Shown here: piece after piece, positions 4,539-48,568 of the stretch
Numbering within the stretch: the stretch's first letter is position 1
How the letters are laid out: every line of letters starts with the position of its first letter
Virus record (IMG/VR): IMGVR_UViG_3300025889_000132
Span: 1 to 59,210 of that record
Source: a virus
DNA length: 59,210 bases
Reading direction: 5' to 3' (one strand)
Notes under the pieces: model-generated
Database searches by the model: none
What the model was told of the DNA's origin: nothing
What the model saw: the letters and a program-made list of their open reading frames with translations, nothing else
Made by a program: the position numbers and the translations under genes

Positions 4539-5000
4539 GTGCAGCTCTCTGATTTTGACAAAAGTAGAATTAGGTATCATTTAGGGTACTTTACTGTTTC
4601 CGTGCCAGCAGGTGATTATGCCCGCCTGGAAGAAGCAATGAATACAGTACCTGATTCTTATTTCTACGATAAGATTACAATTCAGATTGGCAGGTGTGAC
4701 ACTGCCGAGAAGAAGACAGAGGTTGCAACTTCTCCGTCGACTCGCCTGGAAAGTATTGTTGGTGACGTTGATCGTACCATCCGATCAAGCAATGCCAAGG
4801 AGGCATTAAAAGTTTGGGATGAGATTTACCTGTACGAGACAAACCGTCTTGCAGGTATTTTGTACGTTCCTAACTACAAAGATCCGCTGCAGGCAAGATA
4901 CCGTTTTGAGCGTTCTGGTGCTGAATTTATTCAGGCACTCCCTGGTCCTGCCGACACCGCCGTTGGTTCCCGTATTTACTTAAGAGAGGTTTGCCGATAA
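4539..5000 (+). CDS. Unrecognised virion-block protein, possible connector
   Basis: 153 aa, GTG start. A TATAAT box at 4511-4516 lies 23 bases upstream without a clear -35, and the same box recurs before the genes at 6420 and 9012. The protein is mixed alpha/beta with no Cys pair or known motif; the ending SRIYLREVCR runs into the next start. Size, acidic/basic balance and position fit a head-tail joining protein, but this is inference. The stop overlaps the next ATG. Confidence 0.6.
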   Translation: MQLSDFDKSRIRYHLGYFTVSVPAGDYARLEEAMNTVPDSYFYDKITIQIGRCDTAEKKTEVATSPSTRLESIVGDVDRTIRSSNAKEALKVWDEIYLYETNRLAGILYVPNYKDPLQARYRFERSGAEFIQALPGPADTAVGSRIYLREVCR

Positions 5001-6112
5001 TGCCTAACCAAGATTTTTTAGCGAATTTTCTTTCAAATAGAACAACTTCAGCTGCCCCCAGAAACTTAAAGTTCCTCTCTGATGCGGCTGGAAACGTTTT
5101 ATCACGTGTCATACCCCCAGGTGTGAACTGGGGAGGATTACCAACAAGTTTTCTTAGCGAATTAGATCGAATTAATAAGATGTCTCCTGGAGCAGCAAAA
5201 GAAGCTGCTCGTACAGCAGCAAAAACAACCTTAACGCGTTCAGCAGTAACGCCTCCCGTAAGACCACCAATTAGTGCTGCTGGACCAGGGGGAATGCTTC
5301 GTGCACCTGCTTTAAATACACCTTCAGCAGCAGGGACAATTCTTTCCCGTGGTCCTGTATCTCAGATTCCAGGTAGCCCCGTTCAGTTCGATCCCGCTTT
5401 ACGTCGTCAATTTGGATGGACGGGAGGAGCTAGACAGGTCGCTGAAAAGCTGGTTCCACAAGGAAGCGCAGTATCTGCACCATCTATTAAGCCTAGCTTT
5501 GCTATGGCTAAGGAACTAAGAGCCGTTCCAGGGGTTTTAGCAAACGCTGGAGGCGTCTATACTGGCTGGGAACTTTTTAATCTAGGAAGAACAGGAAGTC
5601 TTTTAGATAAAGCTTTAAATGCTATTCCAGATACATCAGATCGTGATCTGGGAAGAATGTCATATGAGGCATTGAAAAAGACTGGTGGGCAAGCTATGAA
5701 TGAAACATCTTATATCGCAAATGAATTATTGCAAGGAAGACTACCTTACTCTTCGACTGGATTAGCACCTGTTGCTACGACAACTCCAGAGCGTCCAATT
5801 GCAAATCTTCCTCCTAATTACAAGCAAACTGAATTAGAAACAGGTGCAGCAGCGGAAGCTTTCCGCTCGGGTGCAGGTTTCCCTGGTCAGCAGTTATTTG
5901 TACCGGTTGTCCCTCAACTTTCTCCAGAAGAACGTGCATACAATCAAGAACGTTCACGTATTGCTCAGTTAACATCTGCTACTCCAGAAGAGCGCAGCAA
6001 ACTCCGCGATGAAGGAATGAGAATCTGGGCAGATAAATACCGTAATTTAGCCAAGGACGTAAAGCCAGGTCAGTCTGGCTATGAGGTCATTCAACAGGTG
6101 TTAAATAAATAA
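5000..6112 (+). CDS. Virion-block protein sharing a C-terminal motif with the ADP-ribosyltransferase
   Basis: 370 aa. ATG 5000 is preferred over TTG 4991 because GAGAGG lies 10 bases upstream and the ATG overlaps the previous stop. The protein is Ala/Pro-rich with a central linker and a helical stretch at about residues 175-235. Residues ~232-250 read MNETSYIANELLQGRLPY, closely matching the C-terminal LTNEARYVYSRLLKGKLPY of the protein at 43414-44595 (NE, Y, LL, G, LPY kept). The final ~120 residues are polar. No enzymatic motif is visible; a minor virion or ejected protein is the best guess. Confidence 0.6.
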   Translation: MPNQDFLANFLSNRTTSAAPRNLKFLSDAAGNVLSRVIPPGVNWGGLPTSFLSELDRINKMSPGAAKEAARTAAKTTLTRSAVTPPVRPPISAAGPGGMLRAPALNTPSAAGTILSRGPVSQIPGSPVQFDPALRRQFGWTGGARQVAEKLVPQGSAVSAPSIKPSFAMAKELRAVPGVLANAGGVYTGWELFNLGRTGSLLDKALNAIPDTSDRDLGRMSYEALKKTGGQAMNETSYIANELLQGRLPYSSTGLAPVATTTPERPIANLPPNYKQTELETGAAAEAFRSGAGFPGQQLFVPVVPQLSPEERAYNQERSRIAQLTSATPEERSKLRDEGMRIWADKYRNLAKDVKPGQSGYEVIQQVLNK

Positions 6113-18406: not shown

Positions 18407-20593
18407 GTGGCTAATAGGCGCGTAACAGAATTACCAGCTATTTTGTCATCAAATATTGATGACGACGATCTTTTGATGGTCGTTGATGTAGCGGAAGTAG
18501 ACCCTGGTCTAAAAAATAAGAAGCTTACTTTTGCAGCCACAAAACAATACTTTAATAGCTACTACCTTCAAATTACCGGTGGAACCATTGCTGGTTCCTT
18601 AATTATTACCAACGACTTAACAGTCAGCGGTACTTTTAACCCTGAAAACATTGAGGTCAGTGGTACAGGTACATTTGCACATCTGGTTGTTACCGGTGAT
18701 GCAAAAGTACAGGGCACTTTAAGCGGTGCAACGATTACCGGTGACATTATTCAAGGGGCAAACATCAATGCCTCTACCGGTAATATCACAAACTTACTTT
18801 CCGATTTAGCAACAATCGGAACAGGTAATTTTATTCGTCTTAGCGGACAAACAATTACAGGCAACACTGTTTCTTTTGGAACAGGAACTATATTTAGCCT
18901 GACGGGAACTAACGCAAACATATCTAATATTTCTGGTACCAACATCACAGGTACCAACATTGTTGGCACAACACTTGTTTCTGGTGCAACCGTAACGGGT
19001 GACTCCGTTAAGGGAACAACGATTACCGGTATCTCCGGTACGTTTACTTCCCGTGTTTCTGGTGCATCGATTACTGGTGACACCTTAAACGCAACAATTG
19101 TTACCGGTGTATCAGGAACATTTACTTCTTATTTATCCGGCGCAACAATTACTGGCGACAGTGTTTCTGTCGAACTGATTACTGGCGTTAGTGGTGACTT
19201 CACTTATTTATCTGGTGGCACCATTACGGGTGTTACTGGTCTATTCGATCAGATCACAACAGATACATTAGTTGCAACAACACAAGTATCCGGCGCTGTT
19301 ATTACCGGAGACTTTGCTCGGTTCTCTAACGTCACAGGCATCAGCGGTGTTTTTACCGATGTTGTTTCAGGTGCAATCGTTACTGGCGTTACTGCACGTT
19401 TCACTAATGTCACCGGAGTTTCTGGAACATTTACACATGTTTCAGGAACGACAGTTACAGGAACAACTGGACTGTTCTCTACACTTACTGCACTAACTGG
19501 TACATTCACCGACACAATTAATATTCCGACAATTGCCACCACAGGTGACATTGTTGCTGGTGGGAACTTAATTGTCAGTGGAAGTGGCACCATCTCTTCT
19601 GGCTTTACGGTTAGCGGAACAATTTCTGGTGGCACTGTAACCGGTATCACCGGTATCTTTGGTGATTTAACAGGAAACCAAATTTATGGCCTGACCTTTG
19701 TTTCTGGTTTTACTGTTACAGGTGCCAGCGGTAACTTCACAAGGGTCAATGCGCAGACTGGAGTCTTTAGCAACTATCTAAGTGGCTCCTCAATTACAGG
19801 AAATACATTCAGCGGTACATCTGGAACATTTACAAGCGGTATTTTCACAGGTGTTTCCGGAGGAACAATTACAGGTGTCACCGGATTATTTGCAAACCTG
19901 ACTGGCGTATCTGGAACATTTACTACTCGTGTTTCTGGTTTAACAGTTACAGGTCAAACTGGCCTGTTTGCAAATCTCACTGGCGTATCCGGAACATTTA
20001 CCGATCAGGTTTCCGGTGCTTACATTACAGGAACATTAATTGAAGCTGTAACAGTTACTGCTGTAACTGGTAACTTCACCGTTGCAAACTTTACAGAAAC
20101 AACAACAGGTTCTGTTCTTGCTAGTGGCTCTGGTTTCTTTGGTAACACCGTTCAAGGTGCCATTCTTAAGACACCTTATTCTTTAACAGGAACAACAACG
20201 TATCTGATTCAAAGCGGAACAAACGGTTTCTCAATCGGCAGCACAGTACTTGAAACTGGAGCTACCGTCTCAATCGCTAGTGGTTCGGATTGGTACGTTT
20301 ACGAAGAATCAAGCGGTTACAAACTTATTGTTGAAGTTACTGGTGATATCACTGGTGTTCCAGGAGCAATGCACGTTCTCTTCTCTGGTGCAACAATTAC
20401 TCTTCCCGGAAGCCCTGCAACAGGTGAGTGGCTGAGTTTTGTTAACCGGAGCAATACGATTACCAGTGTTGTCAATCGAAATGGAAACAATATTGTTGGC
20501 AGTGGTTCAAACTTGACAATTGACGATCTGAATGGCAAGTTTGAGATGACTTATATTAATAGTACTGAAGGTTGGACAATTAACCTGGCATAA
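18407..20593 (+). CDS. Beta-solenoid tail fibre with ~26-residue repeats
   Basis: 728 aa, GTG start. Residues 1-60 form an N-terminal attachment region (LPAILSSNIDDDDLLMVVDV). Residues ~65-620 are repeats of about 26 residues built on TGVSGTFT ... SGATITGDS, each predicted to form a turn of a beta-helix. The last ~85 residues (GDITGVPGAMHVLFSGATIT, NRNGNNIVGS, STEGWTINLA) form a module also found at the ends of the proteins at 21771 and 22898. It would act in host receptor binding. Repeat homology with the two neighbours gives material for recombination. Confidence 0.85.
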   Translation: MANRRVTELPAILSSNIDDDDLLMVVDVAEVDPGLKNKKLTFAATKQYFNSYYLQITGGTIAGSLIITNDLTVSGTFNPENIEVSGTGTFAHLVVTGDAKVQGTLSGATITGDIIQGANINASTGNITNLLSDLATIGTGNFIRLSGQTITGNTVSFGTGTIFSLTGTNANISNISGTNITGTNIVGTTLVSGATVTGDSVKGTTITGISGTFTSRVSGASITGDTLNATIVTGVSGTFTSYLSGATITGDSVSVELITGVSGDFTYLSGGTITGVTGLFDQITTDTLVATTQVSGAVITGDFARFSNVTGISGVFTDVVSGAIVTGVTARFTNVTGVSGTFTHVSGTTVTGTTGLFSTLTALTGTFTDTINIPTIATTGDIVAGGNLIVSGSGTISSGFTVSGTISGGTVTGITGIFGDLTGNQIYGLTFVSGFTVTGASGNFTRVNAQTGVFSNYLSGSSITGNTFSGTSGTFTSGIFTGVSGGTITGVTGLFANLTGVSGTFTTRVSGLTVTGQTGLFANLTGVSGTFTDQVSGAYITGTLIEAVTVTAVTGNFTVANFTETTTGSVLASGSGFFGNTVQGAILKTPYSLTGTTTYLIQSGTNGFSIGSTVLETGATVSIASGSDWYVYEESSGYKLIVEVTGDITGVPGAMHVLFSGATITLPGSPATGEWLSFVNRSNTITSVVNRNGNNIVGSGSNLTIDDLNGKFEMTYINSTEGWTINLA

Positions 20594-20598
20594 ATAGA

Positions 20599-21468
20599 AT
20601 GACAAATCTAAGTGATCTAACTCCTGGTGGAGGCGGTGGCGCCGCTCTTAATTACCAAGAGTTTACTTCAAATGGAACTTGGACCAAGCCAGATAATGTA
20701 ACCTGGGTTGAAGTTGAAGTTGTAGGTGGCGGTGGCGGTGGCGCTAGTGGAAGAAAAGGTGCTTCCAATACTAGAACCAATGGTGGATCAGGTGGTTGGG
20801 GAAGTCCTATAACTAAGAAAATTTTTGCTGCTAGTTCTCTAGGATCAACAGAGTCAATTACTATTGCCGCTGGCGGAACCGGTGGAGCTTCTGTTACAGC
20901 GGATAGTACAAACGGTAATGATGGTGCAGATGGTGGCACATCATCATTTGGATCTCATCTTACTAGTGGTTTTGGAACAAGAGGCAAAGGTGGTGACGAT
21001 GTATCAACTGGGACTTATGCTTACGACAACACAACCCCATTTGCTCTTTTAGACTCTGCTTATAATAACCATAGATATATAGGACCAGGTGGATCCCGCA
21101 CCACTAATTATCAACAAATTTACGCTTCTGCTGGTGGTTATGAAGGCTGGTGTGGCGCCGGGGGCGGTGGCGGTGCTGCATTTAACACTACTAGTTATCT
21201 AGCAACTCCTGGAGGTTGGAATCCTTCTGATGCTCCAGGTACCAATAACGCTGGGTCGACCGATGGCGAATCAGGTGGAAGTATTTCTGCCGGTGGACTT
21301 AGTGGTGGTGGTGGTGGCGCTCCAAATCAAACTGGAGATGCTGGTGACGGTGGCAATGCAGCGATAGGTGGAGGTGGTGGCGGCGGTGGTGCGTCGTTTA
21401 ACGGTCAAGGCGATTCAGGTGCTGGTGGAAACGGCGGCGGTGGCCGCATCCGTGTTTGGGCCTGGTAA
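20599..21468 (+). CDS. Glycine-rich tail-fibre adhesin
   Basis: 289 aa, starting 5 bases after the fibre stop. An N-terminal beta domain (EFTSNGTWTKPDNVTWVEVE) is followed by VVGGGGGGASG and many poly-Gly runs to the end, closing GGGGRIRVWAW. This matches the Gly-rich domain superfamily; in phage S16 gp38 such runs form a polyglycine type II sandwich at the fibre tip that binds receptor. Variable loops between Gly runs would set specificity. Two Cys or fewer are present, so no disulphides are expected. Confidence 0.85.
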   Translation: MTNLSDLTPGGGGGAALNYQEFTSNGTWTKPDNVTWVEVEVVGGGGGGASGRKGASNTRTNGGSGGWGSPITKKIFAASSLGSTESITIAAGGTGGASVTADSTNGNDGADGGTSSFGSHLTSGFGTRGKGGDDVSTGTYAYDNTTPFALLDSAYNNHRYIGPGGSRTTNYQQIYASAGGYEGWCGAGGGGGAAFNTTSYLATPGGWNPSDAPGTNNAGSTDGESGGSISAGGLSGGGGGAPNQTGDAGDGGNAAIGGGGGGGGASFNGQGDSGAGGNGGGGRIRVWAW

Positions 21469-21484
21469 CTAAAGGAGGTAACCC

Positions 21485-21730
21485 ATGATTTACGCAGTTT
21501 TGAATTCAGAAGGTAAGTGCATCAACCGTGTCGTTTGGAATGGCGATACTTCAATTTGGTCTCCACCAGAAGGTTGCACTGCTGTTTGCGATGACGATTG
21601 TTGTCATCCAATTGAGAATGAACATCCTCCCGTGGTTGAATCAAACCCAGAGGAAGAAGTTCAAGATTTTTTAAACGCATTAACTCCTGAACAGAAAGAA
21701 GCTTTGATTTCTCTTTTGAGCCAGCAATAA
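21485..21730 (+). CDS. Small fibre-associated protein, possible chaperone
   Basis: 81 aa. The start has an unusually perfect ribosome site, AAAGGAGGTAA at 21472-21482. The N-terminus reads MIYAVLNSEGKCINRVVWNG and then PPEGCTAVCDDDCC, with five Cys in about 25 residues; the C-terminal third is an acidic helix (EEEVQDFLNALTPEQKEALI). Genes of this kind next to fibres are often annotated as tail-fibre assembly-like. Strong translation relative to neighbours would suit a chaperone needed in excess. Confidence 0.65.
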   Translation: MIYAVLNSEGKCINRVVWNGDTSIWSPPEGCTAVCDDDCCHPIENEHPPVVESNPEEEVQDFLNALTPEQKEALISLLSQQ

Positions 21731-21770
21731 TTGGTCAAAATAGAATAGAACTACTAATTACAGATAAATA

Positions 21771-22847
21771 ATGGCATACGGTCGAGCCAGAATAAAACAA
21801 CTCATTTGGAATTCAGGGGGCGGTGATACTGTCTTCGACTACAACAGTGGGATTCGAAATGGCGACAATTACAGCGGTGGTGTCCTTCAGGCTCAATCGA
21901 TTACAGGAATAACTGGAACCTTTACGGTTTCGGTGTCCGGTGCAGAAATTCAGGCTGATAATTTAAATACAACTACCTTAAGCGGCGTTTCTGGGATATT
22001 CACAGCACTTGCCTCTGGAGCAACAATCACCGGTACAAGTGTTGAAGCAACTAACATTACAGGTACAACAATTAGTGGTGTTGATCTTTCAGGTCAAACA
22101 ACAACAATTGGCACAGTTGTTTCAGTAACCAGCATCACTGGTACAACATTCGAAGCAACAACAGCAGACTTCGGGACGGTTACTGCTGAAACAGGTACTT
22201 TCACCACAACTCTTTCTGGTGCCTCCATTACCGGTACCTCGGTTCGAGCAACAGCAATTACAGGTACTTCCATCAGCGGTACCACTGTTTCTGGCCCAAC
22301 TGCGAACATCACGGTTGCTCGAGTAACAGGAACCTTAACTGCTCCTACGTTTGAAGGAACAGAAGGTGACATCACAACAATTACAACTGAAACAGGAATC
22401 TTCTCTGATCTCGTTTCGGGAGCATCCTTTAAAGCAGACAGCAATACAACTGTTATTACTGATGCTGGTAATGTTCAGCCTTTTGGTCTGTTCAGTTTCC
22501 CAGGCAACCTTGGAACTTCTGGCGCAACCTTAATTAGTAAAGGCAACGGAACAACACAATGGAACGCTGGTTCCGCTAACTACAGCGTTGAAGTTGTTAC
22601 CGGTGCGATTACAGGTGTTGCTGGAACAATGTACGTAATGACGACAGGAACAACAATTACATTGCCTGTCACACCAGCAACCGGTGACTTTTTAATTATT
22701 AGGAATCAAAGTGATTCAACAACTGGCGTTATTGATCGAAACGGTAGCAACATTATGGGTCTTGCTGAAAATGTTGTTATTAATGACTTGAACTTTAAAA
22801 CTGAATTTATTTTCTATGGTGGCACAGAAGGTTGGGTGTTACTGTAA
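21771..22847 (+). CDS. Beta-solenoid tail fibre, paralogue 2
   Basis: 358 aa. The N-terminus (MAYGRARIKQLIWNSGGGDT) is shared in outline with the next protein (MAYGSLKANTIIFNSGGTDY) and differs from the 728-aa fibre. About ten ~26-residue ITGTFT/SGATITGTS repeats follow, then the common C-terminal module (GAITGVAGTMYVMTTGTTIT, DRNGSNIMGLAENV, GTEGWVLL). Tandem duplication with the 22898 gene is likely. Host binding or virion surface decoration is inferred. Confidence 0.8.
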   Translation: MAYGRARIKQLIWNSGGGDTVFDYNSGIRNGDNYSGGVLQAQSITGITGTFTVSVSGAEIQADNLNTTTLSGVSGIFTALASGATITGTSVEATNITGTTISGVDLSGQTTTIGTVVSVTSITGTTFEATTADFGTVTAETGTFTTTLSGASITGTSVRATAITGTSISGTTVSGPTANITVARVTGTLTAPTFEGTEGDITTITTETGIFSDLVSGASFKADSNTTVITDAGNVQPFGLFSFPGNLGTSGATLISKGNGTTQWNAGSANYSVEVVTGAITGVAGTMYVMTTGTTITLPVTPATGDFLIIRNQSDSTTGVIDRNGSNIMGLAENVVINDLNFKTEFIFYGGTEGWVLL

Positions 22848-22897
22848 ATCTTGCAATGTAGAATGGTTAATAATGGAAAAATTAGTGGTCTGCGTAA

Positions 22898-23992
22898 ATG
22901 GCATACGGCAGTCTTAAAGCTAATACAATTATTTTCAATTCAGGTGGTACTGATTACACCCTTGACGTTACCACTTTAGTTTCGAACGGAAGTAATTTTA
23001 GCGGCGGCGTCATCCAGGCGAATTCAATCACTGGATTAACAGGAGTTTTTACAACACTGCTCTCAGGAGCACTGATTACTGGTACAACAAGTAATATCAC
23101 AACCTTTAGTGGTGCAACTGGCATCTTCACTTCGTTCTTGTCAGGGGCATCGATTACAGGCACAAGTATTAACGCCACCTCAATTACAGGTCAAACCGTA
23201 AGTGGTGTCACTGTACTTGCTGAAACAGGAACAATTGGCAACTTAACGTCAACCGGAAGTATTTCCGGTGGAACGTTATCTGGAACAACAGCAACATTTA
23301 CAAGTGTTACTGGTGTTTCCGGCATTTACACAACTGAGATTTCTGGTGCAGCCATCACCGGAACAAGTGTTAATGCCACCAACATCACAGGTTCTACAGT
23401 TACAGCGACAACTTTAACTGCCACAACTGGTGATGTTGGTGATTTAACTGCTTCTACCTCTGTTTCAGGTGGAACCATTTCAGGTACAACAGCCACCTTT
23501 ACTTCTGTAACGGGTGCATCCGGTAACTTCACCTCTGTTATTTCCGGAACACTTTATAAGTGCAGCGGTAACGTCACCATTATTTCTGGGGCTGGCGATA
23601 TTAGACCTTACGGCCTGTATTCCTTCCCTCAAAGTGCAGGTACAAACAACTATGTGTTGTCAACAAATGGAGACGGCACAACAGCATGGGTCGAAGCAAC
23701 TGGCGGTGGGGGTGGCGGAAGCTCTTACACAGTCAGTGGTTTGACTACAAATGAAACTGGGGTTGCTGGTACTTACTATGTATTACTGAGCGGCCTTACT
23801 TTAACGCTTCCAACTACACCGTCTCAGGGCGATTACGTTGGTATAATTAATAGAAGCAATACAACCACAGGAACCGTTGCCCGAAATGGAAGCAACATCA
23901 TGGGATTAGCAGAAGACATGACGCTTAATGACCTGAATGCAAGATTTAGGTTGATTTATGTAAACGCTTCTGAAGGTTGGGTCACCCTCTAA
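22898..23992 (+). CDS. Beta-solenoid tail fibre, paralogue 3
   Basis: 364 aa, 50 bases after paralogue 2. Same plan: MAYG N-terminal domain, repeats (SGATGIFTSFLSGASITGTS and similar), a Gly linker near residue 270 (GGGGGSSYT), and the shared C-terminal module (TNETGVAGTYYVLLSGLTLT, NGSNIMGLAEDM, SEGWVTL). The C-terminal module is closer to paralogue 2 than to the 728-aa fibre. The pair could form different homotrimers or alternative receptor-binding fibres. Confidence 0.8.
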   Translation: MAYGSLKANTIIFNSGGTDYTLDVTTLVSNGSNFSGGVIQANSITGLTGVFTTLLSGALITGTTSNITTFSGATGIFTSFLSGASITGTSINATSITGQTVSGVTVLAETGTIGNLTSTGSISGGTLSGTTATFTSVTGVSGIYTTEISGAAITGTSVNATNITGSTVTATTLTATTGDVGDLTASTSVSGGTISGTTATFTSVTGASGNFTSVISGTLYKCSGNVTIISGAGDIRPYGLYSFPQSAGTNNYVLSTNGDGTTAWVEATGGGGGGSSYTVSGLTTNETGVAGTYYVLLSGLTLTLPTTPSQGDYVGIINRSNTTTGTVARNGSNIMGLAEDMTLNDLNARFRLIYVNASEGWVTL

Positions 23993-42784: not shown

Positions 42785-42946
42785 ATGGCTGAACGTTATA
42801 CAGAAGAAGAACGCCTAGAAGAGTTCTTTGGAAAATTGATGTATATGATTCCCCATCCTCCAAAAGGATGGGAAAAGAAAGCTCGTCCATGTAAGTGGGA
42901 TAAAATAATAAAAGAACGAAACAATAATCCTGATGGCACAGGATGA
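42785..42946 (+). CDS. 53-aa charged protein
   Basis: ATG 42785 to TGA 42946. Helical acidic N-terminus (RYTEEERLEEFFGKLMYM) then IPHPPKGWEKKARPCKWDK. Ends overlapping the next ATG by 14 bases. No family. Confidence 0.55.
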   Translation: MAERYTEEERLEEFFGKLMYMIPHPPKGWEKKARPCKWDKIIKERNNNPDGTG

Positions 42947-43217
42947 TAGTAAATATACGAAACCTGAGTTAAGGGAACGTATTAAAGATCGTGTAATGGC
43001 TGGCTCTAAAGGAGGCAAGCCTGGTCAGTGGTCTGCGCGTAAGGCTCAGCTCGTTGCTTCCGAGTATAAGAAAGCTGGTGGCGGGTACAAAGGTGGTGAA
43101 GGCAAGAAGCAAAAGGCATTAAAGAAGTGGGGTAAGGAGAAGTGGATGACGAAGGATGAATATGAAAAGCGAAAGAAAGCTAAGTCGGCAGCACAAAAGT
43201 ATAAAGACAGCAAATGA
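42933..43217 (+). CDS. Small basic DUF5872-like protein
   Basis: 94 aa. The core is KYTKPELRERIKDRVMAGSK followed by GGKPGQWSARKAQLVASEYK and GGGYKGGEGKKQKALKKWGK. This KGGKPGQWSARKAQL pattern recurs in many cyanophages and other phages (I recall it as DUF5872). It is strongly basic and probably binds nucleic acid. The C-terminal ATGA overlaps the next gene. A related small basic protein is at 44599. Confidence 0.75.
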   Translation: MAQDDSKYTKPELRERIKDRVMAGSKGGKPGQWSARKAQLVASEYKKAGGGYKGGEGKKQKALKKWGKEKWMTKDEYEKRKKAKSAAQKYKDSK

Positions 43218-43414
43218 TTTTAATTTTATCTTTATTACTCACTGTGCAACCAGTTGATGACTGGATGTTGTCATGTGCGCAGTACCAAGCCTTGGTACTA
43301 CGCCTGTACTCTGATCCTTATTTTGAGACGACAGAAAACCTTGGCCGAAGGCAAGAGATCCACGACATCTTGAAGTCACGCACGTTTGATGAATGCATTG
43401 AGGTGAACGCATAA
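43214..43414 (+). CDS. Small exported protein with two cysteines
   Basis: 66 aa, ATGA overlap at the start. A short hydrophobic N-terminus (MILILSLLLTVQPV) suggests a signal peptide or anchor; the remainder carries Cys21 and Cys61 (one possible disulphide) and SDPYFETTENLGRRQEIHD. The tail ECIEVNA overlaps the next start. Similar small periplasmic-looking proteins occur in cyanophages; the function is unknown, possibly superinfection or lysis related. Confidence 0.65.
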   Translation: MILILSLLLTVQPVDDWMLSCAQYQALVLRLYSDPYFETTENLGRRQEIHDILKSRTFDECIEVNA

Positions 43415-44595
43415 TGTCAGAACAAAAGTATAATTTAGGTTCTCCAGAGGTTTTGAGGTTTTTCAATCTTTCAGAGAGAGATGTGGACCCTAGATATCGG
43501 GGAGAGCAAGTTCGCAAGTTAGTGAATCGTCTTTCAACGGCTGATAATTTTGATTATGAAAACGCCCTAATTAATCAAGGTGCTAATCCACAGTCTTTTG
43601 ATTTTTTAAACAACTATATTGAGTTTGAGCACAATTGGAAAACCCCAACCTCTTTAGCTAGTATCAATGAGTTAACAAATTTAGCCCAAACTAAACCAAA
43701 CAAGATTTACTCTTATAATTTAAAAGAAGGTCCTTTGTATAGAGGAACAACGCTTGATGTATCACCAAACGTTGGCGAAGAGATAACTCTTTCTCGTTTT
43801 AAATCTTTCAGTCCAGACATAAACATTGCCGGTCCCTTTATTAATGAAGGACCTCCTTTAGATTTTTCATTAAGCAATGAAGAGTTCAAAAAACAAATAG
43901 CTTTAGAAAAAAATAAACAAAAGACTTTGTTCCAAGTACAAGCAGATTCTCCAGGAGACTTTAATTATTTAATCACCCCTGGAGCGGGAGAACCAGAAGT
44001 TTTGGCTCGACCGGGGTCTAAATATCTTGTGGAAGCTAAAGAACGTTTCCCTTTTGACCAACGTAGAATGACAGGTGATATTGATTTCATTAAGTTACGA
44101 CAGCTTTATGGAATTGACCCAGTTGGAAGTGCTATTCAAGGCGGTGTTAATCTTGTAAAAGAAAATATTCCAGGTGCAACAATTGGTGCAGCATTTTCGG
44201 CTTTAAACCCCGAAGTTGCAAAAGCAGTTGAGCAAAATAACTACAAAAAAGCAGCGCTTACAACGGCACAAGATGTTCTTTTAGGAGCGGGTACAGAGGC
44301 TGTTGCAAATGTGGCAGGTAAATATGTGCCAATGTTTAGTAGAGTGGTGACACCTGCAGCACAGATTGCAGCTCCCGTTGCGGCCGGAAGCGCACTGTAT
44401 ATGCAAGGAAAACCAGGTTCGTTAACTGATGTGGTTACTCGCAAAGCTGCGGCCAATCCAGTGCCTTGGCTTCCATCTGTCAAGCCAAACCCTAAAACAG
44501 ACTTGGGCGCAAGAGCGGGAAGAGCGCTTACAAACGAAGCTCGTTACGTATATAGCCGATTACTAAAAGGCAAACTTCCATATTTTGGCAGGTAA
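43414..44595 (+). CDS. Probable mono-ADP-ribosyltransferase with hydrophobic C-terminus
   Basis: 393 aa. Residues ~25-225 fit the R-S-ExE class of ADP-ribosyltransferases: Arg110 in PLYRGTTLD, Ser131 and Ser133 in FKSFSPDINIAGPF, and Glu193-Pro-Glu195 in AGEPEVLARPGSKYLV, in the order and spacing of this fold. ExE predicts arginine modification. T4 Alt and ModA are phage examples that act on host RNA polymerase. Residues 235-345 are Ala/Val-rich with two or three hydrophobic stretches; residues 369-387 (LTNEARYVYSRLLKGKLPY) match a motif in the structural-block protein at 5000. Delivery inside the virion is inferred from that. Confidence 0.72.
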   Translation: MSEQKYNLGSPEVLRFFNLSERDVDPRYRGEQVRKLVNRLSTADNFDYENALINQGANPQSFDFLNNYIEFEHNWKTPTSLASINELTNLAQTKPNKIYSYNLKEGPLYRGTTLDVSPNVGEEITLSRFKSFSPDINIAGPFINEGPPLDFSLSNEEFKKQIALEKNKQKTLFQVQADSPGDFNYLITPGAGEPEVLARPGSKYLVEAKERFPFDQRRMTGDIDFIKLRQLYGIDPVGSAIQGGVNLVKENIPGATIGAAFSALNPEVAKAVEQNNYKKAALTTAQDVLLGAGTEAVANVAGKYVPMFSRVVTPAAQIAAPVAAGSALYMQGKPGSLTDVVTRKAAANPVPWLPSVKPNPKTDLGARAGRALTNEARYVYSRLLKGKLPYFGR

Positions 44596-44598
44596 ATT

Positions 44599-44805
44599 AT
44601 GGCTGACAAGGCAATTCAAAAGGGATACACCAAGCGTTACCTCCCAGAAAAAGCATGGGCTTCTTTATCAAAAGAAGAGAGGGAGGAAACAGATCAAAAG
44701 AAACGGGCTGGCAGTCGAAAGGGTAAACAGTTTATTCCTAATACTGAACGCGCAAAAAAAGCAGGACGTGCTGCCAGACGATATAAGAATCTAAAGAAAA
44801 AATAA
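44599..44805 (+). CDS. 68-aa small basic protein
   Basis: ATG 44599, three bases after the transferase stop. KGYTKRYLPEKAWASLSKEE and QFIPNTERAKKAGRAARRYK are basic helical segments of the same general type as the 42933 protein. Another frame at 44585 is a shadow. The stop overlaps a short leader ORF at 44805 as TAATG. Confidence 0.7.
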   Translation: MADKAIQKGYTKRYLPEKAWASLSKEEREETDQKKRAGSRKGKQFIPNTERAKKAGRAARRYKNLKKK

Positions 44806-44889: not shown

Positions 44890-45594
44890 ATGTCTACTCT
44901 CGTTGCAAATGTACCTCCAGTAAAGGTGTGGGTACGTCGAGAGTACCTAAGAGATTTGCGAGATGGTCATGGAGAATACACACCAGGTTACTGGGTATCG
45001 TGTAAAAGTATTACAGGACGTGCACTTTACTTCGAAACGTACCTAACAGAATACGGAGCACTGTATGACAAACTCCCTATTAGCGCCTTCCTTTCTTGGA
45101 ACTCTGATCATCCTGATGTACCTACCCCTCCTGAGCCAGATTTGCCGTTAACTGATCTCCAATTCTGGAATGGCTTCGATACTGGCCTGGTAGTTGTCGA
45201 AAAGAACCTGATTTATAATATGGAGTTCGAGGTCATGACTCGTGCTTCTGGCAATATGAAGGGTGAATATTTATTCACCATTGACAATTACCATCCACAT
45301 CGAAACGAACCCGACTATTACTTTTCTGAGGTTCCCGATGAACACAAGTCACACAACATTGTTGCTTTAGACAATGGTCAAATTGGGGCTTATCCCAATA
45401 ATCGTTGTCGAATGGTTGACCCATCTTTAACCAATGATCAGTTAAAGACTCCCGACTTTAAAGTATCAACAAGATATTTTGATGTAGAACACGCTCCTAA
45501 ATGGGGTCGTTTGGGTCAGACTGATGATTATTTCTGGAAAACCCCAAACGAAACCAATGGACAAGCACACCTACGAGAACTGGAAGAAAATTAA
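44890..45594 (+). CDS. Unrecognised 234-aa cyanophage-type protein
   Basis: ATG 44890 follows a terminator T-run directly. The N-terminus (PPVKVWVRREYLRDLRDGHG, EYTPGYWVSCKSITGRALYF) is distinctive; a Pro-rich linker (HPDVPTPPEPDLPLTD) and a charged C-terminal half follow. No enzyme motif is seen. The terminator and leader ORF suggest tight control of its expression; the next gene starts inside its last 38 bases. Confidence 0.65.
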   Translation: MSTLVANVPPVKVWVRREYLRDLRDGHGEYTPGYWVSCKSITGRALYFETYLTEYGALYDKLPISAFLSWNSDHPDVPTPPEPDLPLTDLQFWNGFDTGLVVVEKNLIYNMEFEVMTRASGNMKGEYLFTIDNYHPHRNEPDYYFSEVPDEHKSHNIVALDNGQIGAYPNNRCRMVDPSLTNDQLKTPDFKVSTRYFDVEHAPKWGRLGQTDDYFWKTPNETNGQAHLRELEEN

Positions 45595-45721: not shown

Positions 45722-45794
45722 GCCTTATTAGCTCAGTGGCCAGAGCACTCGCCTTGTAAGCGAGCGGTCGTCAGTTCAAATCTGACATAAGGCT
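45722..45794 (+). tRNA. trnT: tRNA-Thr (anticodon TGT)
   Basis: A full cloverleaf is readable: acceptor GCCTTAT/ATAAGGC, D stem GCTC/GAGC, anticodon stem CTCGC/GCGAG with loop CTTGTAA (anticodon TGT at 45755-45757), variable CGGTC and T stem GTCAG/CTGAC with TTCAAAT. The 3' CCA is not encoded. It reads ACA codons, which are frequent in the Thr-rich fibre genes here. A TATAAT box lies at 45708-45713. Confidence 0.95.
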
Positions 45795-45800
45795 CTTAAT

Positions 45801-45833: not shown

Positions 45834-46085
45834 TTGGCTCGTAATCGAGAACGTATTCGAGAAAGACGCAAGCAGCTTGTAAATTACAAGAAAGAATTAG
45901 AGTGCCAGCGTTGTGGATATGATGATCACCGTGCATTAGAGTTTCATCATCATAATGATGATAAAAGTAAATCAGTATCTCGCATGGTGGGAGAAGGTTA
46001 CTCCTGGGAACTAATCAAAAAAGAAATAGATAAATGCGAAGTGCTTTGCTCTTGTTGTCACAGGATTGAGCACTGGAAAGATTAA
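45834..46085 (+). CDS. Small HNH endonuclease
   Basis: 83 aa from TTG 45834. ECQRCGYDDHRALEFHHHND then KCEVLCSCCHRIEHWKD is the compact HNH layout: CxxC zinc pair, FHH, a second CxxC pair and CHRxxH. It would be a free-standing homing endonuclease. It follows the tRNA and palindrome, a common place for mobile insertion. Confidence 0.88.
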   Translation: MARNRERIRERRKQLVNYKKELECQRCGYDDHRALEFHHHNDDKSKSVSRMVGEGYSWELIKKEIDKCEVLCSCCHRIEHWKD

Positions 46086-46456: not shown

Positions 46457-46713
46457 TTTGGTTTGTTATACAAACCTAAACGTTGAGCTTCGTCTAAGGT
46501 ACCCGGAGCGGTAGCACCTGCATTGAGTGTCATAGCTGCAGTTGCAGGAATTGTTGCGTAAGGTAAACCAAACATAAAACCGGCAAATTTATTAACAGGA
46601 TCATTAGCAATCTGATTGGCCCCATAAGCAATACCTGCTTTTGCACTCTGATCAAAAGCTGTTTTGATCATTGGGTTATTTAAAAATTTACCCGCTAACA
46701 GAATAGGATTCAT
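46453..46713 (-). CDS. 86-aa hydrophobic protein
   Basis: ATG 46713 overlaps the Dps-like stop (TAATG). Two Ala/Gly-rich hydrophobic segments (KAGIAYGANQIANDPVNKFA, then FGLPYATIPATAAMTLNAGA). Reminiscent of the hydrophobic tails of other virion proteins here. Membrane or virion localisation is possible; no family. Confidence 0.55.
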   Translation of the reverse strand: MNPILLAGKFLNNPMIKTAFDQSAKAGIAYGANQIANDPVNKFAGFMFGLPYATIPATAAMTLNAGATAPGTLDEAQRLGLYNKPN

Positions 46714-47264
46714 TAACTGTTCCGCAGGGTTGCTTTAATAAACCAGGCAGCCTTGAAGGCTTCCCCGCATAACTCAGCCATGTAGTTTTGGATGTCGATG
46801 GCCTTGACTTTGGCAGCAACAGGCTCAAGCTTCTTGGTCTTCATACCAAGCTCCTCAAGGTTCTTGTAATAAACCGTGAGCATCTCAGTAGGTTTATAGC
46901 TCTTGACGTGCTTGAAATCAGGACTGGCATCCATCAACCCGTCATGACACATGGGCATTAAGTAGTCCATGCTGCGAATGAACTCACCCAGTTTGTCAAA
47001 CTGATTAATGTGAGCTTCGTATTGGTCTTTCAGGAAAGCATGGATTCCAGTGAAGTTAGGTGCTTCGTAGTTGAAGTGCATCAGGTGGGATTGCACCTGG
47101 AGCTGATGAACATAAGCAGACAGTTGAATGAGCTGCTGGATGAAAGCACCAACGTCTCCACCTTTGGACTTGGTAGGTCCTTTGGGTTTTGCTTGAGGTT
47201 CAGGAGCAGCTTGCTGGACAGCAGCAGGCATTTCCTGGGGCATTTGAGGACCAGGAGTATACAT
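46713..47264 (-). CDS. Dps-like ferritin-fold protein
   Basis: 183 aa. A disordered Pro/Gln N-terminus (residues 1-37) precedes a ferritin-like four-helix domain. HFNYEAPNFTGIHAFLKDQY then QFDKLGEFIRSM matches the Dps HWxxxGPNFxxLHxxF...D...AERI pattern. His63, His75, Asp90 and Glu94 correspond to ferroxidase residues; the position of a further Asp (D47 in Listeria Dps) is Lys79. Dps oxidises iron with peroxide and compacts DNA. A phage copy could protect or condense DNA in the virion or during infection. Confidence 0.72.
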   Translation of the reverse strand: MYTPGPQMPQEMPAAVQQAAPEPQAKPKGPTKSKGGDVGAFIQQLIQLSAYVHQLQVQSHLMHFNYEAPNFTGIHAFLKDQYEAHINQFDKLGEFIRSMDYLMPMCHDGLMDASPDFKHVKSYKPTEMLTVYYKNLEELGMKTKKLEPVAAKVKAIDIQNYMAELCGEAFKAAWFIKATLRNS

Positions 47265-47266
47265 AC

Positions 47267-48568
47267 TTAATAATTAACCTCTTCCCAGTTTAATGCAGTT
47301 AAGACATCAGCTCCTGCACTTTGAGTTGAAACAACAAGGGCAAGAATATTAGAGGTACCGTCAAAAGAATTTCTTTGTAACTGATACTTAAACAAATCAT
47401 TAGTGGAAAGGTCAGTTACGGTCGAGCCTTGGTTTGAACCAATAGAAAACCCATGAACAAGGCTTTGGCCACCACTAATACCGGTTGCCGTTGTGTTGAT
47501 TTCAACTGGTGAATCAGCACCAGCACTTACCCACGTACCACCAGAAATGGTTGTTGCACCGTTGACTAGTTCCCAACGGTAGTTTGCATTATTGGTAATA
47601 CCCAAAACAGAGATACCGTTTAGAACAGCAACAGCATCTGGTGCGGAAGCTTTAAGACGAATGGCAGCTGTTGGATAAAGAGTTCCAGTAGCTGGTAAAT
47701 CGTATGGTTCAGTAATTTCTTGACCTGCAGCACGTCCTTTACCAACTAATTGGTAACCACCTTCTGATAAAACAGTAGAACAAATCTGTTTAAGAGTGCT
47801 GTTTGTTGTAGTGGTATCTAAATTTTCAATCTCATAACGACAAGGCAATGTTGCCGTTGTCATGTAAGTAGAAGTAATGCTGTTCGCATGGTGGAAAGAA
47901 TGACAATGAACAAGTTCACCATCAATTAAAAATCCAGCACGTACAGTACCGACACCAAGCCATTCGAAGTCAAACCACAAGAGTTGTGATTTTGTCATAT
48001 CGAGCGTATAGGCAGATGGCCCGGTGCCATCAAGCTTGTCAATATTCCAATCAGCCTGAGCAACACGGGTGTTCACAACACTGCCGGTATTACTGGAGCG
48101 CTGCACCAGAAAAGGAGTTGCCGTACCGCTTACTTCAACGTAGTAACCGTTATCAGTACCAAAGTACCCAACACGTTGACGCAGGTTTTCTTTGCCACTA
48201 CTCATGACAAAGCTGTTCATGACTTGCAAAGATTTCCCTGGCTGATAAGAGAAAACCCTTGTTGTTTCACGGTAAACTTGTGAACCAGAAGTTGTATCAA
48301 TAGTTAGATCAACCAAGCCTTCATTTGCATTGAAGGTTGCAGTAGAACCAGAGGTAGCCCACTTACCGTTATCCGTATAACGATGAGAAGAATCGAATAA
48401 TGTGAAGGGTTCTGATACTCTTAAGCGACCAAAAGAATCACCTGCCGTTGTTCCAGGCTGAATATAAGTAGACTGACCGCTTACTGTTGTTACCTCGAGT
48501 GGATAACCACTCATGGTTTGTACTTTATTAACAGTAAATACTTGACCTTGATCTATTGCCGTTGGCAT
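47267..48568 (-). CDS. Virion structural protein (FGRLRVSEPF family)
   Basis: 433 aa, ATG 48568. The N-terminal segment GDSFGRLRVSEPFTLFDSSH is characteristic of a family of virion proteins in cyanophages and other aquatic phages; the rest is beta-rich with aromatic and Gly repeats (NSFVMSSGKENLRQRVGYFG). It is long and has few Cys. Likely a major surface or head fibre protein. It is the first structural protein in the minus strand and is followed by the Dps-like gene. Confidence 0.75.
   Translation of the reverse strand: MPTAIDQGQVFTVNKVQTMSGYPLEVTTVSGQSTYIQPGTTAGDSFGRLRVSEPFTLFDSSHRYTDNGKWATSGSTATFNANEGLVDLTIDTTSGSQVYRETTRVFSYQPGKSLQVMNSFVMSSGKENLRQRVGYFGTDNGYYVEVSGTATPFLVQRSSNTGSVVNTRVAQADWNIDKLDGTGPSAYTLDMTKSQLLWFDFEWLGVGTVRAGFLIDGELVHCHSFHHANSITSTYMTTATLPCRYEIENLDTTTTNSTLKQICSTVLSEGGYQLVGKGRAAGQEITEPYDLPATGTLYPTAAIRLKASAPDAVAVLNGISVLGITNNANYRWELVNGATTISGGTWVSAGADSPVEINTTATGISGGQSLVHGFSIGSNQGSTVTDLSTNDLFKYQLQRNSFDGTSNILALVVSTQSAGADVLTALNWEEVNY

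Follow-up and report, generated by a model that had tools for sequence, protein, structure and literature searches.

A predicted Mod-type ADP-ribosyltransferase with a portable C-terminal module in a variable gene slot of S-EIV1-like cyanophages

ADP-ribosyltransferases (ARTs) carried in virions are already known. When phage ARTs are encoded close to the genes for terminase and portal, the usual interpretation is that they are packaged in the head (PMC9503650), and the internal proteins of T-even phages form a diverse set that is injected and has only a targeting sequence in common (PMC3012670). The T4 enzymes ModA and ModB are synthesised once the cell has been infected and act without being packaged (PMC5512222); R73 of ModB is one of the residues changed in the R73A,G74A mutant (PMC10468400). 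Here we describe an ART-like gene in a 59,210-nucleotide stretch of viral DNA (IMG/VR record IMGVR_UViG_3300025889_000132, positions 1 to 59,210; hereafter the window). An earlier note had proposed that this gene encodes a virion-delivered ART of a cyanophage, and had pointed to T4 Alt as the model.

The cyanophage origin was borne out. When 50,697 annotated phage records were searched, the major capsid protein (1145-2308) matched just one, that of Synechococcus phage S-EIV1 (spelled S-EIVl in the record), with 86% identity, and the DNA polymerase of the window is 65% identical to that of S-EIV1. Because both proteins match S-EIV1, we take the window to be a fragment of an S-EIV1-like cyanophage; an early guess of an HMO-2011-like podovirus was dropped once the S-EIV1 match had been found. 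The record contains no portal protein match, and the terminase-portal region of this genome therefore lies outside our view. The S-EIV1 major capsid gene (60859-62007, plus strand; KJ410740 60784-62010) appears in the annotation as a pair of hypothetical proteins, and one of the pair is placed on the wrong strand. The S-EIV1 terminase gene (L007:24081-26621; KJ410740 54080-56620) is one open frame, but an extra stretch of approximately 990 bases that looks like an intein separates terminase residues 199 and 193. Elsewhere in the window, three successive fibre-like proteins with many SGATITG-like repeats are encoded at 18407-23992. A ferritin-like (Dps-type) gene on the minus strand (46713-47264) adjoins a gene on the same strand (47267-48568) for a virion structural protein common to T4-like cyanophages and HMO-2011.

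The open reading frame under study is real; it lies on the plus strand, starts with ATG and encodes 393 residues. The residues named in the earlier note, R110, S131, S133, E193, P194 and E195, are found in the translation at the positions given there. The gene and the parts of its N-terminal region (the head) are as follows.

43414-44595, plus strand: putative cargo gene, 393 aa with an ATG start, ART-like head plus C-terminal module; homologues on 7 IMG/VR contigs
43414-44112, plus strand: head, predicted Mod-like ART, aa 1-233; profile match to the T4 Mod family, dN/dS 0.07-0.13
43741-43743, plus strand: R110, first-strand arginine of LYRG; invariant, opposite ModB R73
43804-43812, plus strand: S131-F-S133 of the F.S.[ST] motif; S131 invariant, S133 Ser or Thr, opposite SFT/SFS of Mod
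43990-43998, plus strand: E193-P-E195, the ExE motif; both glutamates invariant, opposite ModB E171-Q-E173

The homologous contigs, with the window included, represent 5 distinct sequences whose heads are 48-83% identical. R110, F129, S131, E193 and E195 are invariant in all five, and the sole exception among the motif residues is a threonine in place of S133 in the most divergent homologue, L014. The dN/dS ratios of the head given above apply among the four closer copies and are only approximate because dS reaches 0.8-2.3. Strong purifying selection acts on the head. One alternative is that the protein is associated with the virion and that its ART-like head is no longer an enzyme, having been retained for a role in binding or structure. 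The ART fold of the head is putative, which leaves room for this idea; we nevertheless consider it very improbable, since every catalytic position including the ExE motif is kept despite divergence of the head to 48% identity, and since dN/dS is low.

The order of R, S and ExE on which the earlier note had relied is a poor guide to function. This loose pattern occurs in 362 of 1051 ORFs of at least 200 aa and in 60% of shuffled heads, and because it is so common it is uninformative alone; we rejected it as evidence for an ART. The strict motif [YFWH]RG-x-F.S.[ST]-x-E.E behaves differently: among the same 1051 ORFs it is matched by the ART-like family only, and it arises in 0.055% of shuffled heads.

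The relationship to known ARTs was assessed by profile-profile comparison with an alignment of nine proteins, T4 ModA, T4 ModB and seven phage relatives. The head matched this Mod profile with 88.5% probability across 187 columns, and its core with 91.2%. As controls, the Mod alignment was column-shuffled 200 times, with a maximum of 4.3%, and reversed, with 0.09%, while 21 other protein families of these phages, used as decoys, reached at most 3.4% probability. The profile alignment places R110 on ModB R73, S131 and S133 on the Mod SFT/SFS stretch, and E193 and E195 on ModB E171 and E173. Characters of the Mod family seen in the head comprise an arginine in an aromatic-R-G context, the S-x-[ST] strand motif, ExE and the profile relation itself.

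Other searches were less productive. No ART match emerged when the protein and the five heads were scanned against Pfam, PHROG and PDB sequences, the 393-aa protein contains no Pfam or PHROG family beyond a weak PHROG match (E 0.03), an ART-core scan of the genome contigs returned no relatives, and tblastn of the protein against annotated phages found no matches. T4 ModA and ModB likewise match no Pfam ART model, so the silence of the head in family libraries says little. AlphaFold models were of low confidence for both the full-length protein (pLDDT 34.8) and the head (pLDDT 44.7), and for this reason the ART fold of the head is putative; a Foldseek search with the low-confidence head model placed an ART at rank 2 with a TM of approximately 0.12, and these matches were discarded as meaningless. 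The lack of family matches, the low-confidence models and the frequency of the loose triad would all fit a motif that arose by chance in an unrelated fold. We regard this explanation as improbable, because the Mod profile match stands far above every control with the catalytic columns in register and because the strict motif is specific to the ART-like family. We predict that the head is probably an R-S-E ART nearest the Mod family and, judging from its residues, that it is likely to be catalytic. The claim of an ART thus holds at the level of distant homology, but the nearest relatives are the T4 ModA/ModB family rather than Alt. Comparison of the C-terminal part of Alt with the head gave 0.39% probability, which leaves Alt unsupported as the closest relative; the comparison is weak, as Mod itself scores just 0.75% with Alt, and because the Mod-family profile misses Alt too, Alt may yet be a relative.

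The C-terminal half was described in the earlier note as hydrophobic, and as an Ala/Val-rich tail that looked undescribed. It is indeed rich in these residues (28% A+V, compared with 9-10% in the head), and the open-licence literature contains no description that we could find of this tail, or of a cyanophage Mod-type ART with this C-terminus in a variable slot; an earlier description elsewhere is possible. Rather than a mere hydrophobic tail, however, this region is a conserved, portable module found on several unrelated proteins.

44122-44592, plus strand: portable C-terminal module, aa 237-393; also on unrelated heads and on the structural-cluster protein
44353-44592, plus strand: the most conserved stretch of the module, aa 314-393, within aa 237-393
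4991-6112, plus strand: structural-cluster protein with a diverged module copy at about 5513-5749; profile match E 4e-8, located between the capsid and large late genes

The module forms the C-terminus of a protein encoded in L020 and L109, of proteins in L021 and L023, and of a group comprising L022 and L110-L114. The N-terminal parts of these proteins have no similarity to the ART head. The diverged copy forms the N-terminus of the structural-cluster protein in S-EIV1-like phages (S-EIV1 64629-65492, L050, L115-L125). A terminase gene lies just downstream of the module protein in L021, L022 and L023. The L022 terminase has the Pfam T7 terminase domain, and the module therefore occurs in more than one phage lineage. 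Scans of the module against Pfam and PHROG gave no family matches, and tblastn of the L020 protein against annotated phages found none either. S-SBP1 gp53 is a homologue of the L022 head and adjoins a terminase gene, but does not have the module. When the window is compared with L014, the heads are 48% identical with a dS of 2.2 and the modules 80% identical with a dS of 0.49, values that reflect separate recombination of head and module in L014.

Two small, Lys-rich border genes enclose the gene in what we refer to as the slot.

42933-43217, plus strand: left border gene, 94 aa, Lys-rich, phrog_17747; directly upstream in nearly all slot loci examined
43214-43414, plus strand: 66-aa gene with a hydrophobic N-terminus; recurs in the slots of relatives (L058, L070, L080, L093 and others)
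44599-44805, plus strand: right border gene, 68 aa, Lys-rich, phrog_14910; used in the scan for slot loci
44890-45594, plus strand: phrog_3704 gene, adjoining the second slot position; likewise in L004, L149, L152 and others

The 66-aa gene overlaps its two neighbours by 4 and 1 bases. Beside the slot region are a lone tRNA-Thr (TGT) at 45722-45795 and then a small HNH-like ORF at 45834-46085. A scan for the right border gene returned 80 loci, in many of which the border genes are 0-5 bases apart and the slot is empty. The ART gene and its border genes lie between terminase and portal in L001, L013 and L014, and beside the phrog_3704 gene in the window and L004; in S-EIV1 and many relatives the terminase-portal interval has no slot. 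The other contents of the slot are varied. They include the L041 family, with 15 members in the set; proteins that end, judging by motif, in a LysM-like repeat (L175:860-1528); and a 146-156-aa protein that reads, also by motif, like a homing nuclease. Because such homing-nuclease-like genes also occupy the slot, it is not reserved for virion proteins. Further occupants are a protein with HELGH (L061:2630-3481), the L020/L109 protein with the module and, again in L020, a protein with HEAAH (L020:6022-6714). The HELGH and HEAAH proteins are possible metallopeptidases on the strength of these motifs; a Pfam scan of the L061 and L020 slot proteins gave no matches, and tblastn of the L061 protein against annotated phages gave none. 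An N-terminal tag of approximately 40 aa (LFQ.LLN.I..GY..AD..LGGWLPGGG) is likewise portable and is found on proteins with differing C-terminal parts, namely L061:2630-3481, L041:5797-6699, L152:3908-4810, L004:9033-9800 (minus strand) and L149:1070-1789. Carriers of the tag, which include members of the L041 family, occur both within the slot and beside the ferritin-like gene.

The reuse of the C-terminal module on different proteins across related viruses suggests a swappable slot for particle-carried proteins. On balance we lean towards the view that the gene encodes a Mod-type mono-ADP-ribosyltransferase carried as virion cargo of an S-EIV1-like cyanophage. In its favour, the catalytic columns are all in register with Mod and the slot contents vary between fixed border genes. 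We infer a virion location, injection and a host target, with delivery suggested by the terminase-portal location in relatives and by the occurrence of the module on the structural-cluster protein. Under this proposal R110 and the FxSxS strand would bind NAD and E195 would be the catalytic glutamate, while E193 would favour arginine as the acceptor, making the enzyme arginine-specific if the ExE rule holds. Docked onto the particle by the module (aa 237-393), probably close to the portal or the ejection proteins, the protein would enter the Synechococcus cell together with the DNA and modify a host protein as infection begins. As a first guess, the target may be RNA polymerase or proteins of translation.

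The strongest competing explanation, given that ModA and ModB act without packaging, is an enzyme whose action is confined to the infected cell. Here a Mod-type ART would work once made, unpackaged, held at a membrane or an assembly intermediate by the module. That these closest profile relatives are not injected (PMC5512222) counts in its favour and against cargo, as does the position of the gene in the window, beside phrog_3704 and outside the terminase-portal interval; in both the window and L004 the gene is outside the morphogenesis genes. One stretch of the module is also moderately hydrophobic. We nonetheless consider an unpackaged enzyme rather unlikely, since three distinct relatives have the gene between terminase and portal and since the module is common to the structural-cluster protein and to terminase-adjacent proteins of other phages.

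Extending the virion-cargo reading, we propose more tentatively, and with somewhat less than even confidence, that S-EIV1-like cyanophages use the C-terminal module (approximately 155 aa) and the N-terminal tag (approximately 40 aa) to bring interchangeable proteins, encoded in a dedicated slot, into the virion. The cargo would include the Mod-type ART and possibly metallopeptidases, and the C-terminal module would also be used beside the terminase in phages with a T7-type terminase. If true, such a modular cargo system would be a cyanophage analogue of the capsid-targeted internal proteins of T4. Should the module indeed direct loading of the virion, it would be a natural tag with which chosen proteins could be brought into cyanobacteria. 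The slot would then provide a list of candidates for early host takeover or anti-defence in a freshwater phage lineage that is widespread. The presence of a Mod-type ART beyond T4-like phages would also open protein ADP-ribosylation during infection to study in a photosynthetic host.

Among described systems, the protein resembles T4 ModA and ModB in having LYRG, [R]x[V/F]xSF[S/T]xD and ExE in order and in its profile match of 88-91%, but the Mod proteins are approximately 200 aa long, lack the C-terminal module, share only about 16-19% identity with it, and come from T4-like phages of enterobacteria, where they are not packaged. With T4 Alt it would share ART chemistry and delivery with the DNA, both of which are proposals here; Alt is a protein of 682 aa with a different architecture, and no sequence relation was detected in what is a weak comparison. 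As in MuF- and portal-fused ARTs and polyvalent proteins (PMC9503650, PMC5512222), an effector domain is joined to, or encoded beside, virion packaging genes. Unlike the fused ARTs, the 393-aa protein has no MuF, portal or other known domain that we could find, and unlike polyvalent proteins there is one enzyme per protein rather than many, with a C-terminal module that belongs to no Pfam or PHROG family. Compared with the T-even internal proteins and their capsid targeting sequence (PMC3012670), the element described here is larger (approximately 155 aa), C-terminal and from a cyanophage, and its targeting role is putative, but the two systems are alike in that diverse proteins carry one conserved element.
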